Shown here piece by piece: positions 2,160-18,895 of a stretch of 21,184 bases of DNA (position 1 is its first letter; the number at the start of each line of letters is the position of its first letter). The stretch lies in the IMG/VR virus record IMGVR_UViG_3300010160_000276, positions 1 through 21,184 of that record. One strand, given 5' to 3'. The notes under the pieces were generated by a model, which saw only the letters and a list, made by a program, of their open reading frames with translations, did not search any database and had not been told where the DNA came from. Made by a program: the position numbers and the translations under genes. This DNA comes from a virus.

Positions 2160-3688
2160 GAACCGGCCCAGCCGTAGGCCCGAATCCAGATTTGTCCGTC
2201 ACCGCCAGCACCGCCCTTGCCGATACCAGGCCAGCCGCCCGCACCGCCACCACCAGGATGATTACCGTCATTACCGGGCACATTTTCAATTTGTGCACCC
2301 GGATAGTTTTTGCCGTTGAACAACAAGTCGGCCAGTGCAGCACCTTGAACGGTGGGCTGGCCGATACCGGCGGCGCCACCGGCCGAAGTCAACGTCGTCA
2401 AACCGGAACCAACGACATAGGAGGCTTGACCGGGTTGACCGTTTTCCCCGCCGAAACCATCAGCGACAAAGTTTTGGCCGGCGAACGTCGACAATCCGCG
2501 GCCACCGGCACCACCGGTACCGATCACCCCGGCCAGGTAGCGGGTCGCATACGGAATGTCGACGCCACGAATAATAGTTCTGTACGCCCAGGACGACGCG
2601 GAGCCACCCGACCCGGTCACCAACACCCCACCCGATTCGCCGCCACCACCACCACCGACCGCGATGATGTCCAGGCGTTCCGCCCACGTCGGGATCTGGT
2701 AGGAGAACGATCCCGGAAAGGAGAACCGCAACGTGTAATCTTTCGGCGAACCGGTGTTCAACACGGTGACCGCCTCGAGGCCGTATGGCCGTGACCAACG
2801 CCGCGGCTGCAGCAACTGCACCGTCGCCCCACCGACCTGCCCCTTATAGGACACCGGAAGTGCAAACTCCGGGGTATACGGCGGAATGGGAAACGTAAAA
2901 ATCTTGTTGGCGCCCTGCTGCCCCAAAATGTTGGTGTTGTTCAAGTCCCGGTACATCAACTCTGCGCGGTCCAGGTCGATGACCGCGCCACCATTAGCGG
3001 ACGTGATGGTGATGTCGTTGATGTAGCGGGAACCCTGCGCCCCACCGGGAATGCGTTCCCCGGGGTCGCCAACCCACTGAAAATCAGGCAAAGTCCATAT
3101 ACCGGGTGTCAACACCCATTTGTGGTACATCACCTGGTCGGTAGGATTTGACACGATCACAGTGCCGGATGCCGATGTTGCACCGGATGTGAACTGTGAA
3201 ACGACGTTGTCCTCGTACCACATCGGTTCACCGGCCCGCAGCTTCATAATCAGGTTGCCGTACTGCTGCGCAATCGGGTCGATAGTTGAGTTGAAATCTG
3301 GCTGCTCATACATCAACACATCAAGCTTGCGGGTGCCCGACATTTCGGTCACCACCTCGATGGTGGTTTTCTTCGGTGTCTCCGACCACTGGTCGTCTTC
3401 ATAAAAGAAGATTTGGCGGAACAACGATTCGTTGAACTCGAAAGCATCAAAGGTGTCGACCACATGGAAGCCGAGTTCCATGTCGCGTTGCAGCCGCTTC
3501 ACTGCCTTCTGCGTCGAACCGACTTGGAAAGCTCCGGTCTTCCACGTCGACTTGATGGGTGCTTCGTAGATGCCTTGCACTTGGCCAGCCGCCAACCACA
3601 CACCCTCCAAGCCAGCGTCCTGGCCGTGGACATGAAATACGGCGTTGCCGCGGCGGATACGGATAGCGACGATACGAGGATCAGCCAC
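2156..3688 (-). CDS. Distal-tail-like minor tail protein with glycine-rich C-terminal domain
   Basis: A 510-residue protein encoded directly after the tape measure, where siphoviruses place the distal tail (Dit-like) protein that joins tube to tip. Residues 1-330 show the mixed beta pattern of such proteins, with GVWLAAGQVQGIYEAP and a YEDDQW loop. Residues 345-498 form a glycine-rich domain (AVGGGGGGESGG, GGAGGRG, GGGGAGGWPGIGKGGAGG) ending in DGQIWIRAY, the usual close of glycine-rich domains in phage adhesins. That domain could contact the host surface or trimerise. The start is GTG at 3688, one base after the tape measure TAA; no better ATG lies near. The stop overlaps the GTG of the Gp37-like gene. 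The Dit role is inferred from gene order; the glycine-rich domain is directly visible. Confidence 0.85.
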   Translation of the reverse strand: MADPRIVAIRIRRGNAVFHVHGQDAGLEGVWLAAGQVQGIYEAPIKSTWKTGAFQVGSTQKAVKRLQRDMELGFHVVDTFDAFEFNESLFRQIFFYEDDQWSETPKKTTIEVVTEMSGTRKLDVLMYEQPDFNSTIDPIAQQYGNLIMKLRAGEPMWYEDNVVSQFTSGATSASGTVIVSNPTDQVMYHKWVLTPGIWTLPDFQWVGDPGERIPGGAQGSRYINDITITSANGGAVIDLDRAELMYRDLNNTNILGQQGANKIFTFPIPPYTPEFALPVSYKGQVGGATVQLLQPRRWSRPYGLEAVTVLNTGSPKDYTLRFSFPGSFSYQIPTWAERLDIIAVGGGGGGESGGVLVTGSGGSASSWAYRTIIRGVDIPYATRYLAGVIGTGGAGGRGLSTFAGQNFVADGFGGENGQPGQASYVVGSGLTTLTSAGGAAGIGQPTVQGAALADLLFNGKNYPGAQIENVPGNDGNHPGGGGAGGWPGIGKGGAGGDGQIWIRAYGWAGS

Positions 3689-3689
3689 G

Positions 3690-6203
3690 TTACGGTCCCG
3701 GCCTGTTCGTGTACTGCATCTGCGCCAAACGTCCCTGCTTGTTCAACTCACGGCCCAAGCTGTCGACGTCCTGCGTATAAATGTTGTCAATTTTGTAGAC
3801 CGGCTGCGCATTTGGTGCAGGGGGGGCATCAACCTGCGCCAGCTCCGTCGACAGGAAGTTGTTGGCACTGTTCTGAAACAAATCTGGGGGAACCAACTCC
3901 GCAGGACCCATCGCTGACGGTGTCGCACCGGGTGCAAACGGGTCAGCGCCGGGGGCGGCTGGATCAACAGGTCCGGGTCCAGCACCTAGTAGGCCTGTGC
4001 CATCACCCATCGCGTTCGGTTCAACCCCCGCAGCCTGATTCGCACCATTGGACATCAAACCCTTCAACGCGCCAGTGATGGCCCCGTTCGGCACGAACGC
4101 GCCAGGATCGGTGGACAACCAGCGCGGCATACCGAACGGGGTCAACTGTTGGAGTAAAGAATCAGCGCCGATACCCAACATGTCGAATCCGTAGGTGACA
4201 CCGCGTTTGGCGGCGTTGGTTCCCATACCAATTGCGAACTGTGTTGCCGCGCTGGCAGCCATCCCACCCTCGGGACCACCAGCACCCATTGAAGCGCCCA
4301 TTGCTGCGGCGCTGGCCGCCGACGATACTGCCGACGCGGCCTGGTCGATGATGCCGTTGATAACTTCGCCGCCAATATCAATGCCCTTAGCCAGGGTGGA
4401 ATCACCCGCCTTACCCATGTTCCCGGCGGCGGCCGGCATCGCGCCAGCAGTCCGCATATCTTCTAACGACACAGACCCGCCAGAAGCACGATGCAGTGCG
4501 CTACGAAAGTTGTAGACGGCGCCCTGCCCGCCCATCTTCTGAACATCACCTGATGACAAAACGTGTTCACCGTTAGACAGCATCGCCGGAATGGAATCCG
4601 AAGTGCCAGAACCGGCGCCGCGAACACCGCCACCCGAACCGTACCGATAAAAATGCTGTGTGAAAGCAGGGTCAAAAGCGCCAGTGCCGCCGATTCCCCG
4701 ACGTGCAGCAGCGGCGTCACTTCCCCAATTAAATGGGGTGCCGCCCGGAAGGGTGGCCTGCATGTGGTCGGCGTTAAATCCAATGTTGAAAGCGCCGGGC
4801 ATAGAGCCGGGCATAAACCCTCGTGCTGGCAACAACTGTGGAGCGTTCATAGTTGTCAGAGAACGGCCGGCTGTTGATTGGCCGTCGATAATGTTGATCA
4901 AGTCTTCAATGGAGCTGGAACAGTCAGCGAGCCCCTGTGTAAGATCCGCGCTTCCCTGCTGAGTGTATTGGCCGACGGGAACGTTGTTTAGTAGAGCCTG
5001 GTCGTCAAGGTAACGCGATGCAGCCGTAGAGTTGAAATAGCCGCGACCTGCGGTACCGGGGATTGTTCCGCCGAGTAGCCCGCCGGTTGGGTCCATCGGT
5101 CCCAGACCGCGTCGTTGCCTTTGCGCTTCTCCGGTCGGGCCTTGATCACCAAAGATCGTGGGAAAACGATTAGCGACGTAAGGATTGGCCCAATCGGGAA
5201 CGGGTGTGCCAAATATGTCACCTGAGATACGAACTGGAGCCGTCGCGCCCTGTTGCAGTGTTTCGCGGATCGAATAGTCGGTGCCTTGGATTTCATTAGC
5301 AATCTCGTTGGCACTCTTTGTTGTGATGTAGGTCAGCCACGCCGGGACTGCGATGAGGCCCAGCGCACTTGCAATTTTTGCAGCGCCTGTGCCAGCTTTG
5401 CCTGGAAGAACTGTTTCCAGAAGGGTTCCGATTGTGTCGAACTGGTCTTTGATGCCAGAAGCGGTGTTGATTGCTCCGTCAACATCAGTGCCGAACTTAG
5501 AGAGGATGGTGGAGGCATCGGTGCCAAAGTTACGGACACCATCAAGCTGCAGACCGAATGTTTTTCCGATATCTGCGATCAGATCGGTGGTGTTCTGTAC
5601 CGTATCGCCGATTTCTTTAGTGGCTCCTTCAATATCACCGGAGCGCAGCGAATTGGCGATGCCTCCAGCCCAGGATTCCGCACTGGAACGAAGCTCATCT
5701 CCGATGCCCCTGATCCCCGGCAACACAGCGTCTTTGATCGCCCCGCCCAGGTTCCCCGATTTGATACCGCCGCCGATGGTGTCGACGATGGACCCGCCGA
5801 TGCCTTCACCGTCAATGCCCTGTTTCACGCCTTCGGCGATACCGTCGACGATCACCCCACCGATGCCGCCGCGCGGCATCTCCTGCTTCACACCATCTGC
5901 GATGCCGTCGACAATGATCTTGGCGGCCTCTTTGCCCGCGTTTGCGCCCTTGGCCGATTTGGCGATCTCAGAGGCAACGGTATTGCCGATGTCACTCTTG
6001 CGGACGGCTTCCTCTGTCGCCTTGGAGACCGCTTCGCCGGTTTCCTTACCGGCTTTCTCCGCGGCTTTCTTGTCGACAGTTGGGACGATTGGAGCCTCAA
6101 GGCCCTTACCACCGGCACCTTTGAGTGCGTCCTTAACGTCCTTGGCGAGTCGCTTGGTGTCGCCGACAACGGAAACGTAGGCGGTGCCTAGCTCAATCGC
6201 CAT
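3690..6203 (-). CDS. Tape measure protein
   Basis: At 837 residues this is the longest gene in the window, and it follows the frameshifted chaperone pair as in nearly all siphoviruses. It sets tail length and is released during DNA entry. The N-terminus (MAIELGTAYVSVVGDTKRLAKDVKDAL) is typical of actinophage tape measures. Residues 96-154 hold 21-residue repeats, residues 275-296 are hydrophobic (possible membrane insertion), and residues 533-549 carry the common SDSIPAMLSNGEHVL motif. A segment with Cys428 (LADCSSSIEDL) and His480 (NADHMQATLPGG) could be a small hydrolase-like domain. The C-terminal third is rich in Gly, Ala and Pro. The ATG at 6203 has a strong AAGGAGGT site six bases upstream and overlaps the chaperone stop (TGATG). 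At about 0.15 nm per residue the tail would be near 125 nm; this is an estimate. Confidence 0.96.
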   Translation of the reverse strand: MAIELGTAYVSVVGDTKRLAKDVKDALKGAGGKGLEAPIVPTVDKKAAEKAGKETGEAVSKATEEAVRKSDIGNTVASEIAKSAKGANAGKEAAKIIVDGIADGVKQEMPRGGIGGVIVDGIAEGVKQGIDGEGIGGSIVDTIGGGIKSGNLGGAIKDAVLPGIRGIGDELRSSAESWAGGIANSLRSGDIEGATKEIGDTVQNTTDLIADIGKTFGLQLDGVRNFGTDASTILSKFGTDVDGAINTASGIKDQFDTIGTLLETVLPGKAGTGAAKIASALGLIAVPAWLTYITTKSANEIANEIQGTDYSIRETLQQGATAPVRISGDIFGTPVPDWANPYVANRFPTIFGDQGPTGEAQRQRRGLGPMDPTGGLLGGTIPGTAGRGYFNSTAASRYLDDQALLNNVPVGQYTQQGSADLTQGLADCSSSIEDLINIIDGQSTAGRSLTTMNAPQLLPARGFMPGSMPGAFNIGFNADHMQATLPGGTPFNWGSDAAAARRGIGGTGAFDPAFTQHFYRYGSGGGVRGAGSGTSDSIPAMLSNGEHVLSSGDVQKMGGQGAVYNFRSALHRASGGSVSLEDMRTAGAMPAAAGNMGKAGDSTLAKGIDIGGEVINGIIDQAASAVSSAASAAAMGASMGAGGPEGGMAASAATQFAIGMGTNAAKRGVTYGFDMLGIGADSLLQQLTPFGMPRWLSTDPGAFVPNGAITGALKGLMSNGANQAAGVEPNAMGDGTGLLGAGPGPVDPAAPGADPFAPGATPSAMGPAELVPPDLFQNSANNFLSTELAQVDAPPAPNAQPVYKIDNIYTQDVDSLGRELNKQGRLAQMQYTNRPGP
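5742..5918 (-). repeat. 63-bp period tandem repeats inside the tape measure gene
   Basis: Three adjacent units encode residues 96-116, 117-137 and 138-154 with an exact 21-residue period. Units 1 and 2 share the pattern IVDGIA(D/E)GVKQ followed by GxGIGG. Unit 3 is shorter and more diverged (IVDTIGGGIKSGNLGG). Repeats of this type are expected in a helical ruler protein and can change tail length by duplication or loss. Confidence 0.75.
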
Positions 6204-7088: not shown

Positions 7089-7670
7089 TTACGAACCTGC
7101 CGCGTGGCCGGCGTCGTGGATGTACTCGATGACCGCTTCGCTGTTGCCGGTGGCGGGCTTGTAGCAGTCCACGGTGATCGTGTACTTGAGCAGATCGTTG
7201 TGGACGTAGGTGATGTCACCGACATCGACGACAGCGCCTTCCTGGATGACCAGGCGGCGGGTCTTGGTGCCGTCCACGGTGTGAACGACAAATGCCGAAC
7301 GCGGGAGCTGCTTGGAGCGGTGCTCCACCTTTATGGTGCGGTTGCCGGCGCCATCGGTTCCCAATGTGATCCCCGGACCGAACACCGTCTCAAGGACGTC
7401 GGGATCGCTTTCGAGCAGCGACAGTTGGAGGCTGTCGGCGTACTGGCCCTGCGTGGTCTTAACCAGGTCACTGCCGAACGCGTAGTGCTTCTTGATGTCA
7501 CGATTTGTGGACTTTGTGACGCCCTCTTCGCCGAGCCAGCCGTGGTCGACAAACAGTGCGTTGAGCGGTGCGGTGGCGTTGGTGGGGAGGGTCGTTCCCA
7601 GCGGTGCACGAAAGAACACACCACCGGAATCCGGGCGGGTAGGCGCCCAGATGATGGATGAATCTGGCAT
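7089..7670 (-). CDS. Major tail protein (tail tube)
   Basis: A 193-residue protein located between the tail-completion genes and the chaperones, the normal position of the tube subunit. It has a beta-rich composition with family-like segments VFFRAPLGTTLPTNATAPLN (N-terminal, typical of actinophage tube proteins), LFVDHGWLGEEGV, DIKKHYAFGSDLVKTTQG and a final TVDCYKPATGNSEAVIEYI strand. Actinophage tube proteins of this class often carry an extra C-terminal Ig-like domain; it is absent here. The start is ATG at 7670 with GAAAGGGG about eight bases upstream. The gene is followed by the structured gap at 7015-7081, which may set the ratio between abundant tube protein and scarce chaperone. Confidence is high from gene order and sequence pattern. 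Confidence 0.92.
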   Translation of the reverse strand: MPDSSIIWAPTRPDSGGVFFRAPLGTTLPTNATAPLNALFVDHGWLGEEGVTKSTNRDIKKHYAFGSDLVKTTQGQYADSLQLSLLESDPDVLETVFGPGITLGTDGAGNRTIKVEHRSKQLPRSAFVVHTVDGTKTRRLVIQEGAVVDVGDITYVHNDLLKYTITVDCYKPATGNSEAVIEYIHDAGHAAGS

Positions 7671-7725: not shown

Positions 7726-8136
7726 TTATGAGCCGGCCGTGACGACCGCTGTCGTGGTCGACAGGGTAAGGTCCCCGTGGAATTGCCACCGATCCATGTC
7801 GATCACATCGGGGTGCGCACGGGCCACCGGCCCCTGCTCGTCGTCCCAGGAACGCACAAAAGCACCTGAGACCACCGTCGATTGGGCGTTGAGCATCGCC
7901 GCCGACGCTGTGGAATACATCGACTCGCATGTTTCCGGGTCCGCGCCGAACAACTCAATGAGCACCCGGGCGCTGGTGGTCACAACGTCGACACGGCTGC
8001 CGCCGATCACGTCCACCCGGACAAACCGCAGCGGCCGTTGTTTCGGCATTTTCGCCGACACCGGCACATTACCGAACGCATCCCGCAGGATCGCCAGCGC
8101 CGTTTTCAACGCGGGCTGCGGCGTCGGCCACGTCAT
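7726..8136 (-). CDS. Tail terminator / tail-completion protein
   Basis: A 136-residue protein immediately before the tail tube gene, where the tail terminator that caps the tube is usually encoded. Visible features are a short N-terminal helix (PALKTALAILRDAFG), a basic strand (KQRPLRFVRVDVIGG), ARVLIELFGADPETCESMYSTA and a C-terminal strand region (WQFHGDLTLSTTTAVV). The pattern of strand, strand, helix and strand, with a late RWQFHGDLTLS-type strand, fits tail terminator folds of the lambda U / HK97 gp10-neighbour type. The ATG at 8136 overlaps the stop of the previous gene (ATGA). The assignment is mainly positional. It could be swapped in role with the 98-residue neighbour. Confidence 0.75.
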   Translation of the reverse strand: MTWPTPQPALKTALAILRDAFGNVPVSAKMPKQRPLRFVRVDVIGGSRVDVVTTSARVLIELFGADPETCESMYSTASAAMLNAQSTVVSGAFVRSWDDEQGPVARAHPDVIDMDRWQFHGDLTLSTTTAVVTAGS

Positions 8137-8431: not shown

Positions 8432-8815
8432 TCAAGAACCGAATTCGGATGTCACAGCCACCGACCGAACAGCAATCCGGTACGGCTTTAACCGTTCCTT
8501 CAACGCATTCGTCAACCACGGCCCCGAGGTCGTAGCAGATTCCATGCCGACATGAACGCCAGCGGCTTCCCGCGCAGTGGAGTAGCCGCTGGCGTCATAG
8601 TCAGCGATGGTGATAGAAGGCTTGTCAAACACGGCAGCAACCATCGTCGCAACCACCCGTTTTACAGCATCAGGAACCGGGTTCGGTTCTGTGCCCAAGT
8701 AGGCGGCGACGAGATCGGTGGCCTGGTCAAGTTGATTGTTGACAGACCCCAATTCCGCTGTTGTGAGTGACCGCCCGACGGCGGCCAACACATCAGACGA
8801 AGTTGCATACGCCAT
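8432..8815 (-). CDS. Head-tail adaptor (HK97 gp6-like)
   Basis: A 127-residue protein encoded two bases after the capsid gene, the usual place of the adaptor that docks on the portal. The start is ATG at 8815 (MAYATSSDVLAAVGRSLTTAE). Upstream in-frame extension would run into the capsid gene and is rejected. The sequence is helical with ELGSVNNQLDQATDLVAAYLG and PDAVKRVVATMVAAVFDKPS, then a looser region ending in KERLKPYRIAVRSV. That helix-loop-helix layout, with a proline after a short acidic linker, matches the Gp6 / SPP1 gp15 adaptor class found in actinophages. The role is inferred from position plus layout. Confidence 0.8.
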   Translation of the reverse strand: MAYATSSDVLAAVGRSLTTAELGSVNNQLDQATDLVAAYLGTEPNPVPDAVKRVVATMVAAVFDKPSITIADYDASGYSTAREAAGVHVGMESATTSGPWLTNALKERLKPYRIAVRSVAVTSEFGS

Positions 8816-8817
8816 TG

Positions 8818-9726
8818 TTAGGAGCCAGCGTTGATGACCGCGGCGACCGGAACCGGCGCCGAGCTGTACGCGGTAGCACCGGTCGACAACACGTACCCGT
8901 AGCGGGCCTTGAAGCGCAGGGCCACCATATCTTTTTCGGCCAGGTTGATTCCACCGACGGTGGCCTGATCCAAGAACTTTACGGTGATGTCCTGGCGGAT
9001 GCCCACCCTCACGCGGGAGGAATCCACGATGAGGCACTTGGCCCGCGAGTTGTCCCACGTTCCGTTCTGGCTGAACGAGGTGTTGTAGCCGGCGAACGAC
9101 TCATCACGGAAGATCGGCTGACCGGTGGAATCGCGGATGTTGGCGATTTCGTAGCGGAACGTCAAGTTCGCCAGCAGGGTGTCGGGCAACAAGCCCAACC
9201 CGGCGAGGGTCTTCGCCGAGGTGTTCACCGCACCCACGATGTCCGCCGTGTTGGCAGCACCGGAGGTGATGGCCTGAGTCTGCGAAGCAGTCGAAGCCGC
9301 CGAGTACAGCGCAGCACTAGTCCACGATGCCGGCTTACCGACACCCCAGATGATGGCCTGATCGAGCTTCTGGCCGATGGCCTGACCGGCCAGTGCGGAA
9401 ACCTCCGACAACACGTCGGTGGTGGCGTCAGCGAGAACGTCCTCATGTACAGGCACGATGACGGCGATCTCTTCAACGACCATCGTGGTGTTCTTCCAGC
9501 GGACCTCACTGGTGGGCTTGGTGCCCGAGGAATCCTCGGCCTGTTCGGTGACCCACCCGGCCTGGGGCAGGGCTGCCAGCATCGGCATGTTGGTGGTCTT
9601 CGTACCCAAGTTCACCGTCGGGAAAGCCTGGAGGGCCTGAGAGCCCGCCGCGGCCGCTTGCAGGAGGACTTGCGAATACGCGTCCTCGATGAGGGTCGAG
9701 ACATCTGACCGGTTGATATCAACCAT
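8818..9726 (-). CDS. Major capsid protein, HK97 fold
   Basis: A 302-residue protein directly after the scaffold gene. Recognisable capsid segments are VNLGTKTTNMPMLAALPQAG with WVTE shortly after (start of the HK97 core), then SEVRWKNTTMVVEEIAVIVPVHEDVLAD, ALAGQAIGQKLDQAIIWGVG (spine helix and loop) and the C-terminal VALRFKARYGYVLS strand. There is no long N-terminal delta domain: the core begins near residue 35, consistent with a separate scaffold gene and no visible protease. The start is ATG at 9726 with AAAGGAA upstream. It should form the icosahedral shell and would be the most abundant possible acceptor if the phage glycosylation genes modify virions. Confidence is very high from sequence and position. 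Confidence 0.96.
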   Translation of the reverse strand: MVDINRSDVSTLIEDAYSQVLLQAAAAGSQALQAFPTVNLGTKTTNMPMLAALPQAGWVTEQAEDSSGTKPTSEVRWKNTTMVVEEIAVIVPVHEDVLADATTDVLSEVSALAGQAIGQKLDQAIIWGVGKPASWTSAALYSAASTASQTQAITSGAANTADIVGAVNTSAKTLAGLGLLPDTLLANLTFRYEIANIRDSTGQPIFRDESFAGYNTSFSQNGTWDNSRAKCLIVDSSRVRVGIRQDITVKFLDQATVGGINLAEKDMVALRFKARYGYVLSTGATAYSSAPVPVAAVINAGS

Positions 9727-10412: not shown

Positions 10413-11846
10413 TCACTTGGTGACCGCATTGTCAATCATCGGCTTGCCAACCTCAGTAGGCGGATTCGGCATCGTCCCAAGATTAGGTGCCTGCAAAGGC
10501 CGGACTAACCCGTTGGCTTGGCTGCGGTGCAAGGATTCCTTGATGGACTGAATTTTCTGCTGTGTAGCACCAGGAATCATGTCGACCAGCTCTTCAATGG
10601 GGATACCGGAGGCTGCCAACTTTTGGATACCATCCACGACCGCGGCAAAAGACCGGGCCTCTGTGTCCCGCCAAATCACTTCAGACGATTCATCACCAGC
10701 GGTAGACGAATCTCCACTGATTTCGGCGGCAAGCCGGAAACACTGCTCCCACGACTCGCCGAACGTGTCGCGCTTCGACTCGGTCTTACGCTGCTCATTC
10801 GCCTCGGCCGCAGCCAGGGCATCGGCCGACACATGTGACAGTTTCGGATTTAGTTTGGCCGGCGACACCTGGGCTACCGTGGCAATGAACTCCAACATTT
10901 CGGTCAGTTTCGCGTCGTACTGACCGAGGTCGGCGGCCGGATACGACGACGTTTTCACATCCGGGTCCTCGAACGCCCACACCCTCCGCGCCGAGGCTGC
11001 TAACACCTCTGAGGAAGTCCCAGACCAGCCGGTAATCACCTTTTGCGGGAAAGCGCCAAACCTGGACACGATCATCGAATCAAAATTGACTGAATTTAGT
11101 GCCCGCTGCAACACCAGCAGGGGCTCAATCTCCCCCACGATCGTGTCGTCGGCATCCCGGGCATTCACAAACCTGACCACCGGACACACCGATGCGCCGT
11201 GAGCAATGGGCTCCCCCAACGACATCGACCCCAACGTGCGGGCAAAATCAATGCTGTTCGGGTCAATCGACACCGCCGAAGCAGGAACCTCACCCAAATC
11301 CATTGGATACAAATACTCGTCGTCGTAAATGAGAGCTTTACGGCGAGCTTTCGCATCGCAGTTATCGACCCACATCTCAAAGGCGTACTGCGGCCACTCA
11401 TCCATTTGAGGATCTTCATACACGGCCAACAGTTGCCGGGGAGAGCGTGGCCGCCACCGAACATCCCGCTCATCAGAATCCTCATCGCGGGTCACCACAA
11501 CATACGAAGCCCCATAGGTGATCGCCGGCCGGTACACCTCAACCTGGCGGGCATCCATCCGGTTCGACTGCCACATCCTCCAAGCTGGAGCATTCTCCTT
11601 CGCCAACGCAGAGCGATACCCGACAACACACAAGTTCTGCACAAACGCATCCCGCACGAGCGGCAACACATTTTTCATCGACAGCCGTGCAAGGTTCTCA
11701 ATTTCCTTTTCACAACTATCGGGAGTGTTCGGGAAACCGCGGCGGCCCTGCATGTAGTCGTAAATGTTGTCTAAGACAGCAATTTCACGCTGCCGCAACA
11801 ACCACATATCCGAAACGAGGGCGCGAATCTGCTGCTCATCAAGCAC
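10413..11846 (-). CDS. Portal protein, SPP1 Gp6-like
   Basis: A 477-residue protein between the large terminase and the scaffold. It shows the actinophage SPP1 Gp6-like portal pattern: an N-terminal helix (DEQQIRALVSDMWLLRQREI), YDYMQGRRGFP, ARLSMKNVLPLVRDAFVQNL, VGYRSA, then GASYVVVTRDED and RPRSPRQLLAVYEDPQ. Further on are the FDSMIVSRFGAFPQKVITGW stretch, the AQVSPAKLNPKLSHVSADAL segment, and AANEQRKTESKRDTFGESWEQ helices that form the stem and crown. It forms the twelve-subunit ring through which DNA enters and leaves, and docks the terminase. The start is GTG at 11846, with an excellent GAGGAGGAGGG site five bases before it. The nearby ATG at 11839 is out of frame. The site overlaps the terminase stop. 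Confidence 0.94.
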   Translation of the reverse strand: MLDEQQIRALVSDMWLLRQREIAVLDNIYDYMQGRRGFPNTPDSCEKEIENLARLSMKNVLPLVRDAFVQNLCVVGYRSALAKENAPAWRMWQSNRMDARQVEVYRPAITYGASYVVVTRDEDSDERDVRWRPRSPRQLLAVYEDPQMDEWPQYAFEMWVDNCDAKARRKALIYDDEYLYPMDLGEVPASAVSIDPNSIDFARTLGSMSLGEPIAHGASVCPVVRFVNARDADDTIVGEIEPLLVLQRALNSVNFDSMIVSRFGAFPQKVITGWSGTSSEVLAASARRVWAFEDPDVKTSSYPAADLGQYDAKLTEMLEFIATVAQVSPAKLNPKLSHVSADALAAAEANEQRKTESKRDTFGESWEQCFRLAAEISGDSSTAGDESSEVIWRDTEARSFAAVVDGIQKLAASGIPIEELVDMIPGATQQKIQSIKESLHRSQANGLVRPLQAPNLGTMPNPPTEVGKPMIDNAVTK

Positions 11847-11861
11847 CGCAACCCTCCTCCT

Positions 11862-13307
11862 CTAGATGAAACACGCTTTACCTGTCCTAACTTTCGGCTT
11901 GTCGGCAACCTCACCGGAAGTCAAGCCCCATAACGCCAACGTCGCCGCCGTCACCGGGGTGATATCGGACTCCGAATCCTTACGCGACCACCCGAATCCC
12001 GAGTCGCCGATCTTACGTTTACGGGCCGCCGCCAACGCAGAATTGAGCAGCGGCTGATCTAAATGACGCATCCCGCCATCCATGACGGTGTCGTAAAAGT
12101 TTCCGAACGCCGCAGCCATCTGGCGAGCACTAGTAACAGTGACCGTTAATCCCCGCTGACGTAAAGGATCGGCCAGAGAAAATGCCGCCGAGGCCCCATC
12201 CACAACGACTGCCCGAACTTCATGGCGTTCGCACATGTCAACGAACCGTTGGACACCCCAATCCGGTTCCCCGCGGCGCGACTCCACCACATCCACATAA
12301 GGCAACCCTTCGGTGGTCCAGGCGGCCGACGCAATCGTGGCCGTCGACCGGTCCGGGGACACATCAAACGCAATGGCCACGTCGTCGCCGCGGTCCTTCA
12401 AGTTTGCGTCGGCAACAACTTTCCACGAGTCCGCAGAAATCACCCGCTGTGAGCCAGCCGAATCCCACATGCCCAACCGTTCTCGGGCGAAACCTTCATC
12501 GGAGAAGCGTGAGCGTTCGCCCTGGACCACATCCCACTGCAACCGACCACCCAAAGCCGGGTTCGCCGACGAGGCAGACAGCGGGTCGTCCAAATCGGCT
12601 GACCCGGTACACGACCACTCATGCCACGCCAACCGTGACGATTTCCCCGACAGGGCGTCGTCGCGGATACGGGTAAATACTTCCCCGGTCGCGGTCGGCC
12701 CGGGCGGGGTGCCGGTGAAAATCCATTGCGGATTACCGAGTGGCGCCGCCGAAGTCGTGGGCATCAAAGCTTCCAACGCGTCGTCGGAAAGTTCTTGGGC
12801 CTCATCGCACACCAGAACATCGACGGTGAAACCACGACCCGAGCCTTTCGACCGGGCGACGAATTCGACCGAGCCGCCGTTGGTCAGCACGATGGCTTCT
12901 TGGCCGTTGGTGCGCCGAATGTCTTTGACCAGTTCGGCAAGCTCAGGCCATTTGCGGGTGTTCTCAAAGAACGAAGCCAACCGGATGAAGGCTTTGCGGG
13001 CCGTTTTCACTTCGTGGGCGGTGTGCAAAAACTTTTCGCCCAACTGAATCATACCGAACAGCTCGCGCATCTCGAGGATGGCGTTTTTTCCGTTCTGCCG
13101 TGGAACGGCCAGCCCGCAGGAAAGCGACGACCATTTTCCTTGGCGGCCAACGCGGGCCATCCAATCCTCGAGGACTTGGGCTTGCCACAGATCCGGGGCC
13201 AACCCGTAAGAAGACGAAAGAAAGGCGGCGTCTTCGCCGTCCCCACGGAAGCGGCCTTTAGGCGCGACGTGAACCCGCGGCGTCTGCACGCCGAGCGGCA
13301 AGTTCAT
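11862..13307 (-). CDS. terL: Terminase large subunit
   Basis: A 481-residue packaging motor. The ATPase domain has a Walker A-like VPRQNGKN at 68-75 (Lys74), a Walker B VDVLVCDE at 162-169 with catalytic Glu169, and a coupling FTGTPP at 197-202. The nuclease domain has candidate metal ligands Asp315 (AIAFDVSPDRS), Asp370 (AVVVDG) and Asp448 (SESDITPVTAATLALWG). The length is normal for actinophage large subunits that lack a long N-terminal extension. The ATG at 13307 follows GGAAAGGG by eleven bases and lies 50 bases inside the small-subunit gene. The gene ends at a TAG that overlaps the portal ribosome site. The nearby HNH gene suggests cos-type cutting, but this is inferred. Confidence 0.96.
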   Translation of the reverse strand: MNLPLGVQTPRVHVAPKGRFRGDGEDAAFLSSSYGLAPDLWQAQVLEDWMARVGRQGKWSSLSCGLAVPRQNGKNAILEMRELFGMIQLGEKFLHTAHEVKTARKAFIRLASFFENTRKWPELAELVKDIRRTNGQEAIVLTNGGSVEFVARSKGSGRGFTVDVLVCDEAQELSDDALEALMPTTSAAPLGNPQWIFTGTPPGPTATGEVFTRIRDDALSGKSSRLAWHEWSCTGSADLDDPLSASSANPALGGRLQWDVVQGERSRFSDEGFARERLGMWDSAGSQRVISADSWKVVADANLKDRGDDVAIAFDVSPDRSTATIASAAWTTEGLPYVDVVESRRGEPDWGVQRFVDMCERHEVRAVVVDGASAAFSLADPLRQRGLTVTVTSARQMAAAFGNFYDTVMDGGMRHLDQPLLNSALAAARKRKIGDSGFGWSRKDSESDITPVTAATLALWGLTSGEVADKPKVRTGKACFI

Positions 13308-13503
13308 CTAACGCAGTCCCTTTCCGCTGCTGAACCGGGGCCAAGACGTCCAGCTCACGAACGACATCAGCGAGCTGCTTCGTGATCGGGGCAATATCTT
13401 TCGGCGCCCCATCAAAGTCGTCGACCAAGCCGGCCAAATAGTCACGTAACGCCGTCAACGACGCCACCCGATTCCCCGAGGAGAACGCGTCAGCGACAGT
13501 CAC
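13258..13503 (-). CDS. terS: Terminase small subunit
   Basis: An 81-residue helical protein overlapping the start of the large subunit by 50 bases. Key segments are RVASLTALRDYLAGLVDDFD, KDIAPITKQLADVVRELDVL and KGTALDELAARRADAAG, the pattern of short actinophage small subunits that bind DNA at the packaging site. I chose GTG at 13503 (VTVADAF). A TTG at 13512 would add three residues and also lacks a clear ribosome site. Further extension has no start codon before a stop. Initiation may depend on coupling, because the 40-residue lipoprotein gene ends at 13490, just inside this gene. The start is uncertain, the family assignment good. Confidence 0.82.
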   Translation of the reverse strand: MTVADAFSSGNRVASLTALRDYLAGLVDDFDGAPKDIAPITKQLADVVRELDVLAPVQQRKGTALDELAARRADAAGSRRA

Positions 13504-13612
13504 TGCACCCAACAGCCGGCAAGGACTGATTGGGCAACACCAAATCCTGACCGGTCTTGCAACCCGCCAGAATTGACGCCGACACCATCAGCATTACAGC
13601 GATTTTTCTCAT
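13490..13612 (-). CDS. Small lipoprotein (40 residues)
   Basis: A short gene with clear lipoprotein features. It has Met-Arg-Lys at the N-terminus, a hydrophobic segment to residue 17 and a lipobox L15-A16-G17-C18, so signal peptidase II would leave a 23-residue mature peptide anchored at Cys18. The mature part begins CKTGQDLVLP and ends in GCSDCR. The ATG at 13612 is preceded by GGAG five bases upstream and forms a TGATG junction with the 59-residue gene. The stop overlaps the terminase small-subunit start. It is not a normal part of the packaging module. Possible roles are superinfection exclusion, as in other phage lipoproteins, or an aid to lysis. The function is not known. Gene reality is supported by start signals, overlaps and the lipobox. 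Confidence 0.68.
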   Translation of the reverse strand: MRKIAVMLMVSASILAGCKTGQDLVLPNQSLPAVGCSDCR

Positions 13613-13791
13613 CAGCTCTCCGGGTTTTCGGTGGTCGGGGGGATATTCGCCGCAGCCCTGAGCTGCGGCGTGCCTGTGGGCTCAGGGGTTGGCCCCCAGC
13701 CCGGTCCAGCGTCCTCTATGGCCTTCATTGCCGCCTGGATGCGCGCTGCACCCAGTCCGCGACGCCAGGAAGAATCACCACTGTCTGCCAT
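13612..13791 (-). CDS. Small protein of unknown function (59 residues)
   Basis: This reading frame fills the gap between the HNH gene and the lipoprotein gene. It begins MADSGDSSWRRGLGAARIQA, continues as an amphipathic helix to about residue 28, and has a Pro/Thr-rich second half (GWGPTPEPTGTPQLRAAANI). It shares its last bases with the next start (TGATG) and overlaps the HNH end by 17 bases, the same spacing style as its neighbours. No good ribosome site precedes the ATG, so translation would depend on coupling. I recognise no family. A different reading frame in part of this stretch (13725-13961) is mostly inside HNH and is rejected. It is probable but not certain that this gene is real. 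Confidence 0.55.
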   Translation of the reverse strand: MADSGDSSWRRGLGAARIQAAMKAIEDAGPGWGPTPEPTGTPQLRAAANIPPTTENPES

Positions 13792-14032
13792 GAGTGTGCG
13801 TGGCCGGCTGCTTGTTGTATCGCTTCTGGTTGCAGATGCGGTGCGCTGGCTTGAGCTCGCCGTTGCGGTTGTCGCCTCCGCGTGTCACTGCGATGACGTG
13901 GTCTGCTGACCATGACATGGGATGGGGTGATTTGAACTGTTCGTCTATCCACTGTCCGCAAAGCCAGCAGGTGTCTTCGTTGCGGATCTTCTTGCGGTTG
14001 CGTAGGTAGGCGCGGTCTTTTGTTCGGCTCAT
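13775..14032 (-). CDS. HNH endonuclease
   Basis: An 85-residue HNH nuclease starting MSRTKDRAYLRNRKKI. The zinc and active-site pattern is clear: CWLC at 22-25, SADHVIAV with the catalytic Asp-His pair, an Asn in GGDNRNGELKPAH, and HRICNQKR providing the last His and Cys. Small phage HNH proteins beside terminase genes are known to assist terminase cutting in cos-type packaging, and the position here fits that role. I chose ATG at 14032, which overlaps the preceding stop (ATGA). An upstream extension to 14164 adds a proline- and arginine-rich stretch that lies wholly inside the glycosyltransferase gene and is rejected. The ribosome site is modest (AAGGCGG). Confidence 0.93.
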   Translation of the reverse strand: MSRTKDRAYLRNRKKIRNEDTCWLCGQWIDEQFKSPHPMSWSADHVIAVTRGGDNRNGELKPAHRICNQKRYNKQPATHTHGRQW

Positions 14033-14667
14033 AGTGTCACCGCCTTGTCTGTCCAAATGTCGCGTGTTCCTGTTCGGTAGGCGATGCGGCCTGGTGGCCG
14101 AGGGAGTTTGTCGTGGTGTCGGAACAGGGTGGGTAGGTCTGCGTGGTCGATGAGTGATGGCCATGTGTAGGCGACGTCAATGAAGTTGTTGGTTGCCCAG
14201 TGGGAAATGGCTTCGTCGATGGGGAAGAAGTCGGGTAGCTGGTTGAGGTGGTCAAGCATGGATTGGGTGTGGTCGGTGCGTACAGCCACGGCGACGGCGT
14301 GGAGTAGTTGGCGGCTAATGATCCAGTGTGCGTCGGCGGCGTCCGCTCGGGCGATGGCTTGTTGTTTGTCTCGCTCGATGTCAAGTTGTGGGAGATGGTG
14401 TTTTCCCAGGTAGAAGGACACGATTGGTGCGGGTGTGGTAGCGAGTGCTTGCGTTGCCTGGTCTAGGAATTTGTCTACGGGGATCGCGTCGTCTTCGAGG
14501 ACGATGGACCATTCTGTGGACTGTTCGGCAAGGTGTTTCCACACTTTTTTGTGGTTGGCGTTGCAACCGAGTGTGCCGTCATCAACGGATAGGTAGGTGG
14601 CTTCAACATGATCGGCAAGTCCGCTGGCCTGCTCAAGTCGGGCTGTGTGAGCGACTATTCCGATCAT
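14029..14667 (-). CDS. Glycosyltransferase, GT25-like
   Basis: A 212-residue enzyme resembling the LPS-biosynthesis family 25 of glycosyltransferases. Visible features are an N-terminal MIGIVAHTAR strand, GCNANHKKVWKHLAE (residues 34-48), WSIVLEDDAIP (53-63) with the acidic LEDDA that would bind the donor sugar and metal, a FYLGKHHLP segment, and PIDEAISHWATNN (149-161) as a second acidic element. The product is shorter than many members, so it may be a minimal catalytic domain. It has no signal peptide and should be cytoplasmic. It is the last gene of the six-gene cassette and overlaps both neighbours by four bases. Donor and acceptor cannot be read from the sequence. Confidence 0.83.
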   Translation of the reverse strand: MIGIVAHTARLEQASGLADHVEATYLSVDDGTLGCNANHKKVWKHLAEQSTEWSIVLEDDAIPVDKFLDQATQALATTPAPIVSFYLGKHHLPQLDIERDKQQAIARADAADAHWIISRQLLHAVAVAVRTDHTQSMLDHLNQLPDFFPIDEAISHWATNNFIDVAYTWPSLIDHADLPTLFRHHDKLPRPPGRIAYRTGTRDIWTDKAVTL

Positions 14668-15674
14668 CCGAGGACTTCACGGTATCGGGGTGTCAGGCTT
14701 TCCCACGACAACTGTTCGCGTAGAAGGTGGGCTTTGGCCAAGGCCCGAACGTAGAAGTCGTTGTCAAGGGCGAGCTGGTCGATCTTGGCGGCTAGGGCGT
14801 CGGGTTCGGTGCGGTGCACGAAGATGTGTTGCTTGGCCCGGAAATCCCCGGACACCATGCCTGGTGTCAACCATTCGGCGGGTAGCCATGTGTTGTTGGG
14901 GTCGATGTCGGGCATGATGACCGGGATTCCAGCGCCGATGGCTTCGTTGGCCGGTAGGCACAGGCCGCCGAAGCGCCGCGGCAGGATCATGGCGTGCTGA
15001 TTGTCGTAGACCGTCCAATAGTTGTCGTGGTCTACCGAATCCAGGATGAGCGTCACGTTGTCTGGTGTGCGGATCTGGTGGTCGTAGATAAGACCGGTGA
15101 CGTATGTGGGGTGTTGGCAGGTGATGGTGACGGTGATGTGGGCGGTCACATGCTGCAATGCCTGTAACAGGTCGAGGGTGCCGTTGCGGTCGTAGACGGC
15201 GGGTCTTCCGACGACGTGCAGGAACCGTGTTGCTGTCAACGGTTTGTCGGTGACCGGGAAGCGGTCCGTTTCTATCGGAACGGGTAGGTGTGTGGCGCCG
15301 GCCGGGAAGCGGTCGAAGTTCCACAGGCTTGGTGCGGCCCACATAGATGGTTGGTCGCGTGGGTCCAAGAATTCGTAGTTGGCGTGTAGCACAGTACGAA
15401 CACCCATGCGGTTGGCTACCGTCCACAGGTCGCCATATCCGGTTTCTGCGGTGTAGACGACGTCCAGGCCGTCCAGGAATTGGGCGTAGTCCATCTCGGA
15501 TGGCAGGCCGCGAACGATGTGGGCGCCTGGGAAACGATCTAAGTGCAGTTGTAGGGGCTGCATTGACGGGCAGTCGACGACCATCGTTTTGGCTGGCTGT
15601 AGGTTGCGTTGCACAGCCCACGTTTGTTGGCCCAGGCCGCGGTTGTCTGCTCGGGCAATCAGTCCGAGGCGCAT
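14664..15674 (-). CDS. Glycosyltransferase, GT4-like (GT-B fold)
   Basis: A 336-residue enzyme with the two-domain layout of GT-B transferases. The N-terminal domain has MRLGLIARADNRGLGQQTW, with the glycine-rich acceptor-site loop, and VRTVLHANYEF near residue 92. The C-terminal domain starts around HVVGRPAVYDRNGT (153-166) and has the donor-site ILPRRFGGLCLPANEAIGAG (230-249) in which Glu244 is the expected nucleotide-sugar contact, followed by PVIMPD. I chose ATG at 15674, which forms a TGATG junction with the previous gene; a TTG one codon upstream is an alternative. It is cytoplasmic, with no membrane segment. It probably adds one sugar in the glycan made by this cassette. The sugar is unknown. 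Confidence 0.88.
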   Translation of the reverse strand: MRLGLIARADNRGLGQQTWAVQRNLQPAKTMVVDCPSMQPLQLHLDRFPGAHIVRGLPSEMDYAQFLDGLDVVYTAETGYGDLWTVANRMGVRTVLHANYEFLDPRDQPSMWAAPSLWNFDRFPAGATHLPVPIETDRFPVTDKPLTATRFLHVVGRPAVYDRNGTLDLLQALQHVTAHITVTITCQHPTYVTGLIYDHQIRTPDNVTLILDSVDHDNYWTVYDNQHAMILPRRFGGLCLPANEAIGAGIPVIMPDIDPNNTWLPAEWLTPGMVSGDFRAKQHIFVHRTEPDALAAKIDQLALDNDFYVRALAKAHLLREQLSWESLTPRYREVLG

Positions 15675-16408
15675 CAATACACCTGGGTGTCGTCGAACTT
15701 GGCTTCACCGGCGCGGCCATCGGTGTGATACGACCGTTTCATGTTGCCGTTGCCGGGGTCGTAGATGTGGACGCGGTGCTGAACCCAGCCTTGGTAGCCG
15801 TCGATGCGTTCGGCTTCCTCGAGGATTCCGTACATGCGGTCCTCGATGAAGCATTTCGTGTCGGCGGTGAAGTGTGAGTTGAGGATGCGCCGGTAGTAGG
15901 CGGTGGAGGCGATGTGCGGGCGTTGGGACCACTGCGACGTTTCAATGAACACGTCGGTGCGGCCGTGCATCAAATGAGTGTGCTCGGCTGGCATGGCCCC
16001 TTCGTGGTACAGGCGCACCACGTTGGAATTTCCGTCGACAATGAACTGCTCAATTTTGTCGAAGTCGGTGGGCTCATCAACGACGAGGGGTGTGTCTTGC
16101 TCCACGTATAACAGCAGGGTTGTATCAATCTTGTCGATGATGTGGCGCATCAGCCCGGACTGATGTTCGTGGCTCTCGAACAGGAATGGGACGATGTTGC
16201 CCCAACTGTGGTCGGCCAGCCACAACGCCCGGTGGATGAAGTCGTTGTAGTCGGCCCGGCGGTGTTCCTGCTCGGACCGAACCCCATCAAAAGTAAGGAA
16301 GATTTCCGATGTCGGAAACAGTTTCCTCACCGACCCGATGGTTTCGGCAAGTATTGCGGTGTCGGGATGCGATTTGATGGGTGACACCGGCATCACAATC
16401 GTGATCAT
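15674..16408 (-). CDS. Glycosyltransferase, GT-A type
   Basis: A 244-residue protein starting MITIVMPVSPIKSHPDTAIL, the usual first strand and loop of GT2-like transferases. LTFDGV (38-43) supplies a nucleotide-contact Asp, LYVEQDTPLV (100-109) holds a DxD-like metal-binding element (EQD), FIEDRM (187-192) a candidate catalytic acid, and GNMKRSYHTDGR near the C-terminus a candidate His metal ligand. I chose ATG at 16408, which overlaps the preceding stop (ATGA). A longer reading to 16594 lies inside the exostosin-like gene and has no such junction. The family is not a textbook GT2, and an unassigned GT-A group is possible. It belongs to the coupled cassette. Confidence 0.8.
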   Translation of the reverse strand: MITIVMPVSPIKSHPDTAILAETIGSVRKLFPTSEIFLTFDGVRSEQEHRRADYNDFIHRALWLADHSWGNIVPFLFESHEHQSGLMRHIIDKIDTTLLLYVEQDTPLVVDEPTDFDKIEQFIVDGNSNVVRLYHEGAMPAEHTHLMHGRTDVFIETSQWSQRPHIASTAYYRRILNSHFTADTKCFIEDRMYGILEEAERIDGYQGWVQHRVHIYDPGNGNMKRSYHTDGRAGEAKFDDTQVY

Positions 16409-17238
16409 GTGGCGCCCAGGTCGTCGAGATCCGCTTTCAGCCAGCGGGTCAGGTTGCGTTTTTGGTGCATCCACCACACGGTGATGCGGTTGGAGTTCGC
16501 CGGCCACTCGTCGAGCTGGTCGTTGATGTAACCCGGTAGCTGGTCGTAGTTGTCGACAATGGGAAACGGGGCGTCCGGGTACAGGTTGTCCCAAAACGGT
16601 TTCGTGTCCGCTATCGGCACCGTGTGCGCTTCTAACGCTTCATACAGCCGGAATGTGTCAGCAGTGACCGGACCGGACGGTGCCGGCGCAATTTTCGCGG
16701 CCTGCATACACCCGACGTACCGTTTCTTGTCCATGCCTTGGGTGAACCCTGCGGTTTCGGTCACCAGCTTCGGCACCGTCACGTTGTTGAGGGCGGCGAA
16801 ACATTCATTGCGGACATTGTGCGTGTTTTGCGCCGACAGGAACACCGCGGTGCCGCGCTCTTCCGGCCACAACACGTTGAAGTGCGGTGGGAAACCAATC
16901 CCGAACAGGCGGGCATCGCCGTAATCAGAGCCCGGTTTCGGGGATTGCACCCACCATTTGATGTTGGGGTGGTACACCCGATCTGGTTGGAACAGGTCTT
17001 CCTCGTCGCCGACGCGCATCGCCAACACCCACTCGTATTGGGAGATGGCCTCAGAGATTTCGTTGGTCTTCTGATACCAGTAGCGGCCAGGGATGATCAG
17101 GATTGCGCCGTCAGCGTTGGGGTAGCCTTCGCGGCGCTTGAATTCCAGGCCAGTGTCGTAAAGGTCGTTGAGGAACAGAAGGTCCAACATATTTTGGTCC
17201 CACTGCTGTTTAGGTGCTAAACGACCGACGTGGATCAT
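16405..17238 (-). CDS. Glycosyltransferase, exostosin-like (GT47-type)
   Basis: A 277-residue protein resembling the exostosin group. The diagnostic region is residues 173-209: RYVGCMQAAKIAPAPSGP followed by DTFRLYEALEAHTVPI, which matches the exostosin pattern of a Pro/Gly loop, then S/T-F-R-x-x-E-A-L, then a proline turn. It continues with PIVDNYDQLP. The N-terminal half has a strand-rich region (AILIIPGRYWYQ, YEWVLAMRVGDEED, PNIKWWVQSP). No signal peptide or membrane anchor is seen, unlike eukaryotic exostosins, so it would act in the cytoplasm. The ATG at 17238 overlaps the methyltransferase stop by four bases. Donor and acceptor are unknown. Confidence 0.78.
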   Translation of the reverse strand: MIHVGRLAPKQQWDQNMLDLLFLNDLYDTGLEFKRREGYPNADGAILIIPGRYWYQKTNEISEAISQYEWVLAMRVGDEEDLFQPDRVYHPNIKWWVQSPKPGSDYGDARLFGIGFPPHFNVLWPEERGTAVFLSAQNTHNVRNECFAALNNVTVPKLVTETAGFTQGMDKKRYVGCMQAAKIAPAPSGPVTADTFRLYEALEAHTVPIADTKPFWDNLYPDAPFPIVDNYDQLPGYINDQLDEWPANSNRITVWWMHQKRNLTRWLKADLDDLGAT

Positions 17239-17975
17239 GGCTGATAAAACCAGTGTTGTTCGTGGTCTTTGGCCAGGAAGGTTGGGGTGTAGCCCATTGA
17301 TTCCATGAACGTATGAACGTCTTCGATGGTGGCGTTGTAGTCACGTTCCAGCAGGTCATCGTGAAGCGAAGCCCACACCAGAGGCCGGTGTTCCATCAGG
17401 GTGTCTGTGGCACCGTGCAGCACTTTGAGTTCGGCGCCTTCAACGTCGATGGTGATTGCGTTGGGAATGATGGTGGAGCGGGCCACCAGGTCGTCCAACG
17501 TTAATTGCGGGATGCCTTTGGTGTGGTTGTGGATGTACTGGTATTTGTTGCGGTCGATAAGGTCGCCGTCGGCGGCGGCCGGCCAGGGCGTGAACGTGCG
17601 GATCTTGCGCGTGGTGTTGTCCGACAGTAGGCCGGGATAGCAGGCCATCGGCGGATAGTGGTAGTTACGTTCCCAAATGGCTTTGATGTTCGGCCAAAAC
17701 TCTTGCGTCGGCTCAATCAACACCATGTTTGTGGGGCCAACCATGTCGGCATAAATCAGGTTGCACCAGCCCTGCTCAGTCCCCACATCGAACAGGATGT
17801 CGCCGTAGGTGAGGTTGTCGCGCATCGAATGGAATCGTTCGCGTTCCCAGCAGGCGAACACATCCCAGTCGCACAGCGGGGCCGGGAGCTCGAATTCGTA
17901 TTCGAACGTTTCGTCCGGCTTCTCCAGGAACCGGACCGGTTTCCACTGCACGGCATCCAACGGGATCAGGGCCAT
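17235..17975 (-). CDS. FkbM-family methyltransferase
   Basis: A 246-residue SAM-dependent methyltransferase. The SAM-binding motif is ILFDVGTEQGWCNLIYA (60-76), followed by VLIEPTQEF (85-93) for the acidic ribose contact. The FkbM signature ITIDVEGAELKVLHGA sits at 174-189. Members often O-methylate sugars or polyketides, and between two glycosyltransferases the likely substrate is a sugar hydroxyl of the same glycan. I chose ATG at 17975 (MALIPLDAVQW), overlapping the CgeB-like gene by ten bases. An extension to 18041 lies entirely inside that gene and is rejected. Sugar methylation could cap the chain or mimic methylated actinobacterial surface sugars; this is inference. Confidence 0.88.
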   Translation of the reverse strand: MALIPLDAVQWKPVRFLEKPDETFEYEFELPAPLCDWDVFACWERERFHSMRDNLTYGDILFDVGTEQGWCNLIYADMVGPTNMVLIEPTQEFWPNIKAIWERNYHYPPMACYPGLLSDNTTRKIRTFTPWPAAADGDLIDRNKYQYIHNHTKGIPQLTLDDLVARSTIIPNAITIDVEGAELKVLHGATDTLMEHRPLVWASLHDDLLERDYNATIEDVHTFMESMGYTPTFLAKDHEQHWFYQP

Positions 17976-18895
17976 ATCGTGTCCAGGATGGTCTGCCACC
18001 TGTGAACGTACGTGTGGTGGCCTTTGACGTGGGCATGACACATGGTGCGTAGCGTTTCGCGGCCCTCGTCGTGTTCCAGGTAGTAGTCGATCAAATCTTT
18101 GAGGCCGTTGAAGTCGCCGAAGTCGAAGAACGGCATGGTGCCGTCGAACAGCTCGGGGATGCCTTTGATGCGCGGGAAAATTTGGAAACCGCCGCGGCCT
18201 GGTGCCTCAAAGAGTCGGTCCGAGGCATACCAGGGATAGTCAAAGCCGAGGCACAAGGTGTCTCCTACCGCCACCTTGGACCCTGCGTATGCCCTGTTTA
18301 AGTCGTCGCCCCGCAGTGTTCCGGTGTCGCCGTCGCCACCGATGTGGGTGAACCGTGGGCCGTAGGTGTCGCGGAGCCAGTCAATCAACTGTGGGCGCCA
18401 CAACCATTCCGGGTGATATCGCTTCGACCCGACGAAGATGACGTCGTTGGCGTGCGGTGACGGCTCGGTGCTGATGTAGCACTCCTTGTCGAACACACCC
18501 GCCGGCAGATAATGGCCTTGGACGTTTGTGTGGTCGTTCAGCCAGTCGGCCATCTTCTTGTCGACGGTAAAGAAGTGGTCGATGTCCCAGTATGAACTTG
18601 ACCGCATATCGCGTTGACGTTCCAACCCCAACCACAGGTCTAGGTGATATGTCACCGAGGGGATGTTGGCTTTGCGGAGCCGCCGTAACGTGTCCTCGAT
18701 GCCCGGGGTGTCCCAGCCGTGGGTATGAACCCACACAAAAAGGTCACACGCAAGAGCTTCAGCGGTGACGATGTCGGCTGGTGTCGACGGTTCCTGTAAT
18801 CGCACCACCTCATGCCCGAGGGTTTCCAGCGATGAGGCGTGATGGTTTTCGGAACTGTACGGAACCTGAAAGTTGCCGAGAAAAGCGATACGCAT
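17966..18895 (-). CDS. Glycosyltransferase, CgeB/GT-B type
   Basis: A 309-residue GT-B transferase resembling spore-protein CgeB and its relatives. It begins MRIAFLGNFQVPYSSENHHA with the first nucleotide-fold strand and loop. Further elements are YHLDLWLG (83-90), LPAGVFDKECY (130-140), VIFVGSKRYHPEW (152-164), LNRAYAGSKVAVGDTL (199-214) and SDRLFEAPGRGGFQIFP (225-241), the donor-binding segment with the conserved glycines. It is the first gene of the cassette. The start ATG at 18895 has no clear ribosome site, and a 27-base gap separates it from the upstream stop. It therefore may be poorly initiated or depend on a signal not recognised here. Confidence 0.86.
   Translation of the reverse strand: MRIAFLGNFQVPYSSENHHASSLETLGHEVVRLQEPSTPADIVTAEALACDLFVWVHTHGWDTPGIEDTLRRLRKANIPSVTYHLDLWLGLERQRDMRSSSYWDIDHFFTVDKKMADWLNDHTNVQGHYLPAGVFDKECYISTEPSPHANDVIFVGSKRYHPEWLWRPQLIDWLRDTYGPRFTHIGGDGDTGTLRGDDLNRAYAGSKVAVGDTLCLGFDYPWYASDRLFEAPGRGGFQIFPRIKGIPELFDGTMPFFDFGDFNGLKDLIDYYLEHDEGRETLRTMCHAHVKGHHTYVHRWQTILDTIWP

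Follow-up and report, generated by a model that had tools for sequence, protein, structure and literature searches.

A run of six coupled genes in this viral contig, hereafter A to F, probably forms a virion O-glycosylation locus of the kind carried by the mycobacteriophages Che8 and Corndog but equipped with different elongating enzymes, in which F would prime the terminal serine of the major capsid protein (MCP) and of the major tail protein (MTP). The initial annotation had proposed a phage glycan cassette here; this reading was upheld, while what it said of the operon and of the acceptor had to be revised, as described below.

The window analysed is 21,184 bases long, is a virus record of IMG/VR and probably comes from a virus of actinobacterial bacteria. 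All genes of interest lie on its minus strand (Table 1). No near DNA match to the window was found in the phage collection and no relative in a terminase-based scan of the genome collection. The six open reading frames described previously at 14029-18895 were all found, with overlaps of 10 bases between A and B, 4 bases for each of B/C, C/D, E/F and F/HNH, and 1 or 4 bases for D/E, depending on whether E starts at ATG 15674 or TTG 15677. After the cassette come the HNH gene, a short gap, the terminase small and large subunits, an SPP1-type portal and a scaffold gene, followed by the MCP, connector genes, the MTP, chaperones, the tape measure and minor tail proteins. Promoter and terminator scans gave matches at chance level only.

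Table 1. Features discussed in the text (positions refer to the window unless another record is named)
Feature	Position	Strand	Basis or remark
Gene A, CgeB-type GT-B glycosyltransferase, 309 aa	17966..18895	-	PF13524, phrog_28745
Gene B, FkbM-family methyltransferase, 246 aa	17235..17975	-	PF05050, TIGR01444; ATG at 17975
Gene C, exostosin/GT47-like glycosyltransferase, 277 aa	16405..17238	-	profile versus PDB; homologues
Gene D, putative glycosyltransferase, fold unproven, 244 aa	15674..16408	-	context; C+D fusion in L245
Gene E, GT4-like GT-B glycosyltransferase, 336/337 aa	14664..15677	-	PF13692, phrog_2170
Gene F, GT25-like glycosyltransferase, Che8 gp110 homologue, 212 aa	14029..14667	-	phrog_854, PF01755
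HNH endonuclease, 85 aa	13775..14032	-	phrog_338 (2.9e-19); synteny
Putative cos site	13655..13663	.	start/end points of related contigs
Terminase large subunit, synteny anchor	11862..13307	-	phrog_9 (6e-74)
MCP, proposed acceptor	8818..9726	-	phrog_10; C-terminal ...INAGS, Ser codon 8821-8823
MTP, proposed acceptor	7089..7670	-	phrog_117; C-terminal ...HAAGS, Ser codon 7092-7094
Genes for poly-Ser-tailed proteins in fragmentary records	L171: 4001-4966, 5330-5809, 6564-7175; L186: 4001-4948		

The combination of several glycosyltransferase types with an FkbM methyltransferase, as first annotated, was largely supported when the six products were submitted to the protein-family search that had been suggested: A, B, E and F gave direct profile matches and C was reached via a profile of its homologues, whereas D matched nothing and its assignment as a GT-A enzyme comes from context and an E-x-D motif. 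Gene A matched PF13524 (3.3e-20) and phrog_28745 (1.9e-28); it is 27% identical to gp34 of Streptomyces phage Dryad and 49-54% identical to its homologues in the records L245-L248. Gene B scored above the cut-offs of both PF05050 (7.9e-10, 39.6 bits against 22.7) and TIGR01444 (2.2e-14, 54.1 bits against 37.7), which places it in the FkbM family. For gene E, the match to PF13692 was below the Pfam cut-off (2.9e-5), with phrog_2170 at 2.3e-9 and PF13692 at 8.7e-8 for the homologue in L245. The sequence of C on its own found no Pfam match. However, a profile of six C sequences matched PDB exostosin GT47 and A075L structures (3e-5), and C homologues matched Exostosin_GT47/RXYLT1_C families (PF03016, 4.6e-5, below cut-off; PF24785, 1.5e-6, above cut-off). 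A weak PDB match of C to a pepsin-like chain was gone with a broader alignment and was discarded. Gene D had no match to any profile in any library searched, nor did its profile find the Che8 gp109-type glycosyltransferases or F; its fusion to C in L245, its neighbours and the conserved E-x-D make it a putative glycosyltransferase. AlphaFold models of C and D, each built on an alignment of two sequences, were too poor to use (pLDDT 34-36; 34 for D).

The order A-B-C-D-E-F is kept in two other phage contigs, at 66-95% identity overall: 68-95% per gene in IMGVR_UViG_3300027746_000113, and 66-75% in IMGVR_UViG_2596583567_000002, where the HNH gene is 87% identical. Over the three phages all six genes show dN/dS values of 0.06-0.31, indicating purifying selection. 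Three intact copies under such constraint show that the reading frames are real. In L002, F (10578-11219) is only 68% identical to that of the window while A-E are 85-95% identical, which suggests that F was exchanged there by recombination. Homologues of A, C, D and E are also found at 27-54% identity in L245-L248, clusters of low GC content. These records come from more distant phages; L246-L248 carry A-C-D-E, and L245 has A, an additional gene, a B homologue, C fused to D (531 aa), E and another glycosyltransferase just before the terminase. The recurrence of this A-(B)-C-D-E set, together with the C-D fusion, would indicate a functional link among these genes. F was not detected in these fragmentary records, and the A-C-D-E module is thus not tied to it.

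Gene F matches phrog_854 over its full length (residues 2-211, 1e-73) and GT25 PF01755 (1.4e-7), has homologues in 694 records, mostly of mycobacteriophages, and is 51% identical to Che8 gp110 (E 7e-73). Its D-x-D-like EDDA motif (E57 D58 D59 A60) is invariant in 12 homologues. According to the passages of PMC12363180 that cite Freeman et al. 2023, capsid glycosylation requires gp110 in Che8 and gp38 in Corndog; corresponding passages place glycans on the C-terminal ends of the subunits of capsid and tail tube in mycobacteriophages (PMC12619734) and describe covalent glycans on the capsids of Che8 and Rita (PMC11256854), both citing the same work. A cryo-EM paper on phage Douge concerns glycan binding, not glycosylation, and was set aside. 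One could also imagine that the enzymes of the cassette glycosylate modified bases of the phage DNA against restriction, phage glycosyltransferases being able to modify DNA as cited in a passage of PMC12619734. This is highly unlikely, as the characterised F homologue acts on protein; the absence of a PF00303 thymidylate-synthase-type enzyme from two related fragmentary records (20.9 and 34.4 kb) weakly disfavours it as well.

The surroundings of F are also those of known loci. As expected of a mycobacteriophage virion O-glycosylation locus, the window has a gp110-type glycosyltransferase adjoining further glycosyltransferases; it lies at the cos end, with HNH and terminase genes as neighbours. 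The order is gp108 (glycosyltransferase), gp109 (glycosyltransferase), gp110, gp111, gp112 (HNH), right end in Che8; glycosyltransferase, hypothetical gene, F, HNH, right end in FreddyB; and glycosyltransferase, F, HNH, terminase small subunit, terminase large subunit in Cronobacter phage ENT39118. Che8 thus shares with the window a homologous F, the placement of glycosyltransferases, F, HNH, cos and terminase, a sugar methyltransferase, and MCP and MTP ending in -GS. By contrast, gp108 (a GT2+TylF fusion) and gp109 (GT2-like) have no detectable homology to any of the CgeB, FkbM, GT47-like, D and GT4-like products A-E. In the Corndog-type phage Firecracker, gp33-gp36 likewise comprise a TylF methyltransferase (gp33), glycosyltransferases and an F homologue (45% identity), but the locus lies between portal and protease and the glycosyltransferases are others. 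FreddyB and ENT39118 have one glycosyltransferase of about 500 aa in place of five genes in the window, with no methyltransferase seen beside it, and in phiAsp2 F is accompanied by a glycosyltransferase and an O-methyltransferase (pas34). No other gene is shared by these otherwise different loci with the acceptor signature described below, which makes F the best candidate for acceptor recognition. A parallel in function is known from chlorovirus PBCV-1 (A064R, A061L, A075L), in which virus glycosyltransferases and methyltransferases finish a methyl-capped capsid glycan; its exostosin-like A075L, which C resembles, is a proposed xylosyltransferase (PMC9614988). That glycan is, however, an N-glycan on the capsid of a eukaryotic virus.

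C-terminal residues are expected to be conserved if a glycan sits on them. Among the close relatives of the window, every complete copy of MCP and MTP ends in -GS, down to 64% and 45% identity, respectively; in the window itself both end in ...AGS, offering a C-terminal serine as a potential O-acceptor. Che8 MCP ends in ...KTGS and its MTP in ...SDGS, although no BLAST similarity is detectable between the Che8 and window MCPs. In other phages carrying F, the MCP/MTP ends are VGS/GDS (Firecracker), AGS/AGS (phiGD22-1), QGS/GGS (RedRaider77), AGS/PAS (Fryberger and Volt), DPS/AGS (Neville), SGS/AGS (ENT39118), DGS/DGS (Kimberlium) and VGS/SGS (Forza). Counted over a subset of seven (Che8, phiGD22-1, Firecracker, RedRaider77, Fryberger, Neville and ENT39118), a terminal serine occurs in 14/14 MCPs and MTPs against 11/147 other coding sequences (p~9e-14), and Gly-Ser in 11/14 against 3/147 (p~4e-12). 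At genus level, both proteins end in serine in 12 of 15 phages with F and in 1 of 10 without (p~0.0009; p~0.03 with clusters collapsed), in a hand-picked panel whose related phages are not fully independent. Phages verified to lack F end differently: GE/AA (Angelica), GE/AV (Larva), AA/SV (TM4), GA/VA (Eleri), EG/GA (D29), TP/AA (Giles), VG/VV (Bxb1) and TP/GV (L206). The difference is seen even within one MCP family, where Kimberlium and the window clade, with F, end in -GS while Angelica, Larva, TM4 and L206, without F, end in E, E, A and P. Exceptions occur on both sides. Without F, the Fionnbharth MCP ends in GS and HK97 has GS/IS; the MCP of ENT39118 is uninformative because that of HK97 also ends in -SGS. 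With F, the phiAsp2 MCP ends in CP and those of the myoviruses ArcherS7 and Phrappuccino in KA and AA. The -GS ends fit the C-terminal capsid and tail-tube glycans reported for mycobacteriophages, and the earlier view that the sequence does not reveal the acceptor was too cautious, given a Che8 gp110 homologue in the same genomic position and conserved -GS on both proteins.

We infer the following pathway. F would recognise the C-terminal Gly-Ser of MCP and MTP and transfer a first sugar onto the terminal serine. Chain extension from the host nucleotide-sugar pool would then fall to A, C, D and E, and B would O-methylate a sugar, probably as a cap, so that the mature virion would bear a methylated oligosaccharide on capsid and tail tube. 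Alternatively, F could add one or a few sugars to virion proteins while A-B-C-D-E build a glycan for another acceptor, such as a minor tail or fibre protein or another virion protein. The occurrence of A-C-D-E without detectable F in L245-L248 speaks for such a division, as do the -GS ends of three further window proteins, specified below. It is nevertheless unlikely, since A-F are translationally coupled, their order is kept in three phages, and other F loci too combine F with further glycosyltransferases and a methyltransferase. The three additional -GS proteins are encoded at 8432-9058 (head-tail adaptor), 7726-8136 (tail terminator) and 2156-3688 (minor tail protein); the first two ends recur in many close relatives, and all three proteins are possible further acceptors.

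A classical role of phage glycosyltransferases is alteration of a host surface polysaccharide or glycolipid against superinfection, as in Gtr serotype conversion, and it has been proposed for other phages (PMC10202952, PMC10955285). Tyrosine integrases in the contigs of the relatives L054 and L002 (L250, L251) make lysogenic expression conceivable. However, no membrane segment was found in A-F (no 19-residue segment with mean hydropathy >1.3), and the cassette contains no membrane-spanning protein or flippase of the kind that marks Gtr-type loci. Together with the action of the F homologue on the Che8 capsid and the C-terminal serine signature, this renders a change of the host envelope quite unlikely, and we retain glycosylation of MCP and MTP as the preferred reading.

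Phage virion glycosylation has been described recently, for the most part from mycobacteriophages, in which it alters recognition by antibodies. The present locus would bring uncultured phages into this system, with a set of elongating enzymes that is largely non-homologous. It differs from the mycobacteriophage locus in this elongation module and in an FkbM enzyme in place of the TylF methyltransferase; the comparison further suggests that the final residues of capsid and tail proteins reveal the acceptor. In its general form, to which we give an even chance, a C-terminal Gly-Ser or Ser on MCP and MTP would be a portable tag for gp110/F-type O-glycosyltransferases, shared by capsid families and hosts that are otherwise unrelated. 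Exchangeable glycosyltransferase/methyltransferase cassettes (here CgeB-FkbM-GT47-D-GT4) would build different glycans on it, and in some relatives the capsid, tail and connector proteins would carry the tag extended to a poly-Ser tail, 8-21 residues long. If this rule is true, glycosylated phages become predictable from sequence and F enzymes are candidate tools for tagging C-terminal serines. The poly-Ser tails seen comprise 21 Ser (L171) and 13 Ser (L186) on a capsid protein, 17 Ser on a tail protein and 8 Ser on a stopper-like protein.

Nine related contigs start at one identical point, TGC..C.AATATCCCCCCGACC, and 2596583567_000002 ends at ..GCCGCA, just past the HNH gene. This shared point is most simply read as a cos site with the overhang at window 13655-13663, whose minus-strand sequence GCTCAGGGC stands between GCCGCA and TGCGGC. 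Read in this way, packaged DNA would have the structural genes on its left and the cassette on its right. The cassette had been placed directly before the packaging and head genes, which holds on the contig but not in virion DNA, where cos lies in between; nor does it lead the structural operon in the packaged genome, being at the right end, beyond cos. Only on DNA that is circular or concatemeric would that placement hold, and late read-through is possible there. Just inside the left end, a 40-aa minus-strand ORF (13490-13612, MRKIAVMLMVSASILAGCKTG...) with a lipobox-like LAGC could encode a phage lipoprotein; L015, L016 and L009 have a similar ORF. The stretch between cos and the large terminase gene, or between HNH and cos, differs among relatives; by eye, it contains a ParB-like/DNA methyltransferase gene in L010 (2023-3297) and a protein with an HNH-like end in L008 (1096-2115). 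Upstream of the cassette in L054, a WhiB-like ORF (3913-4176) was recognised by eye and, with the integrases mentioned above, suggests that these relatives are likely temperate actinophages.
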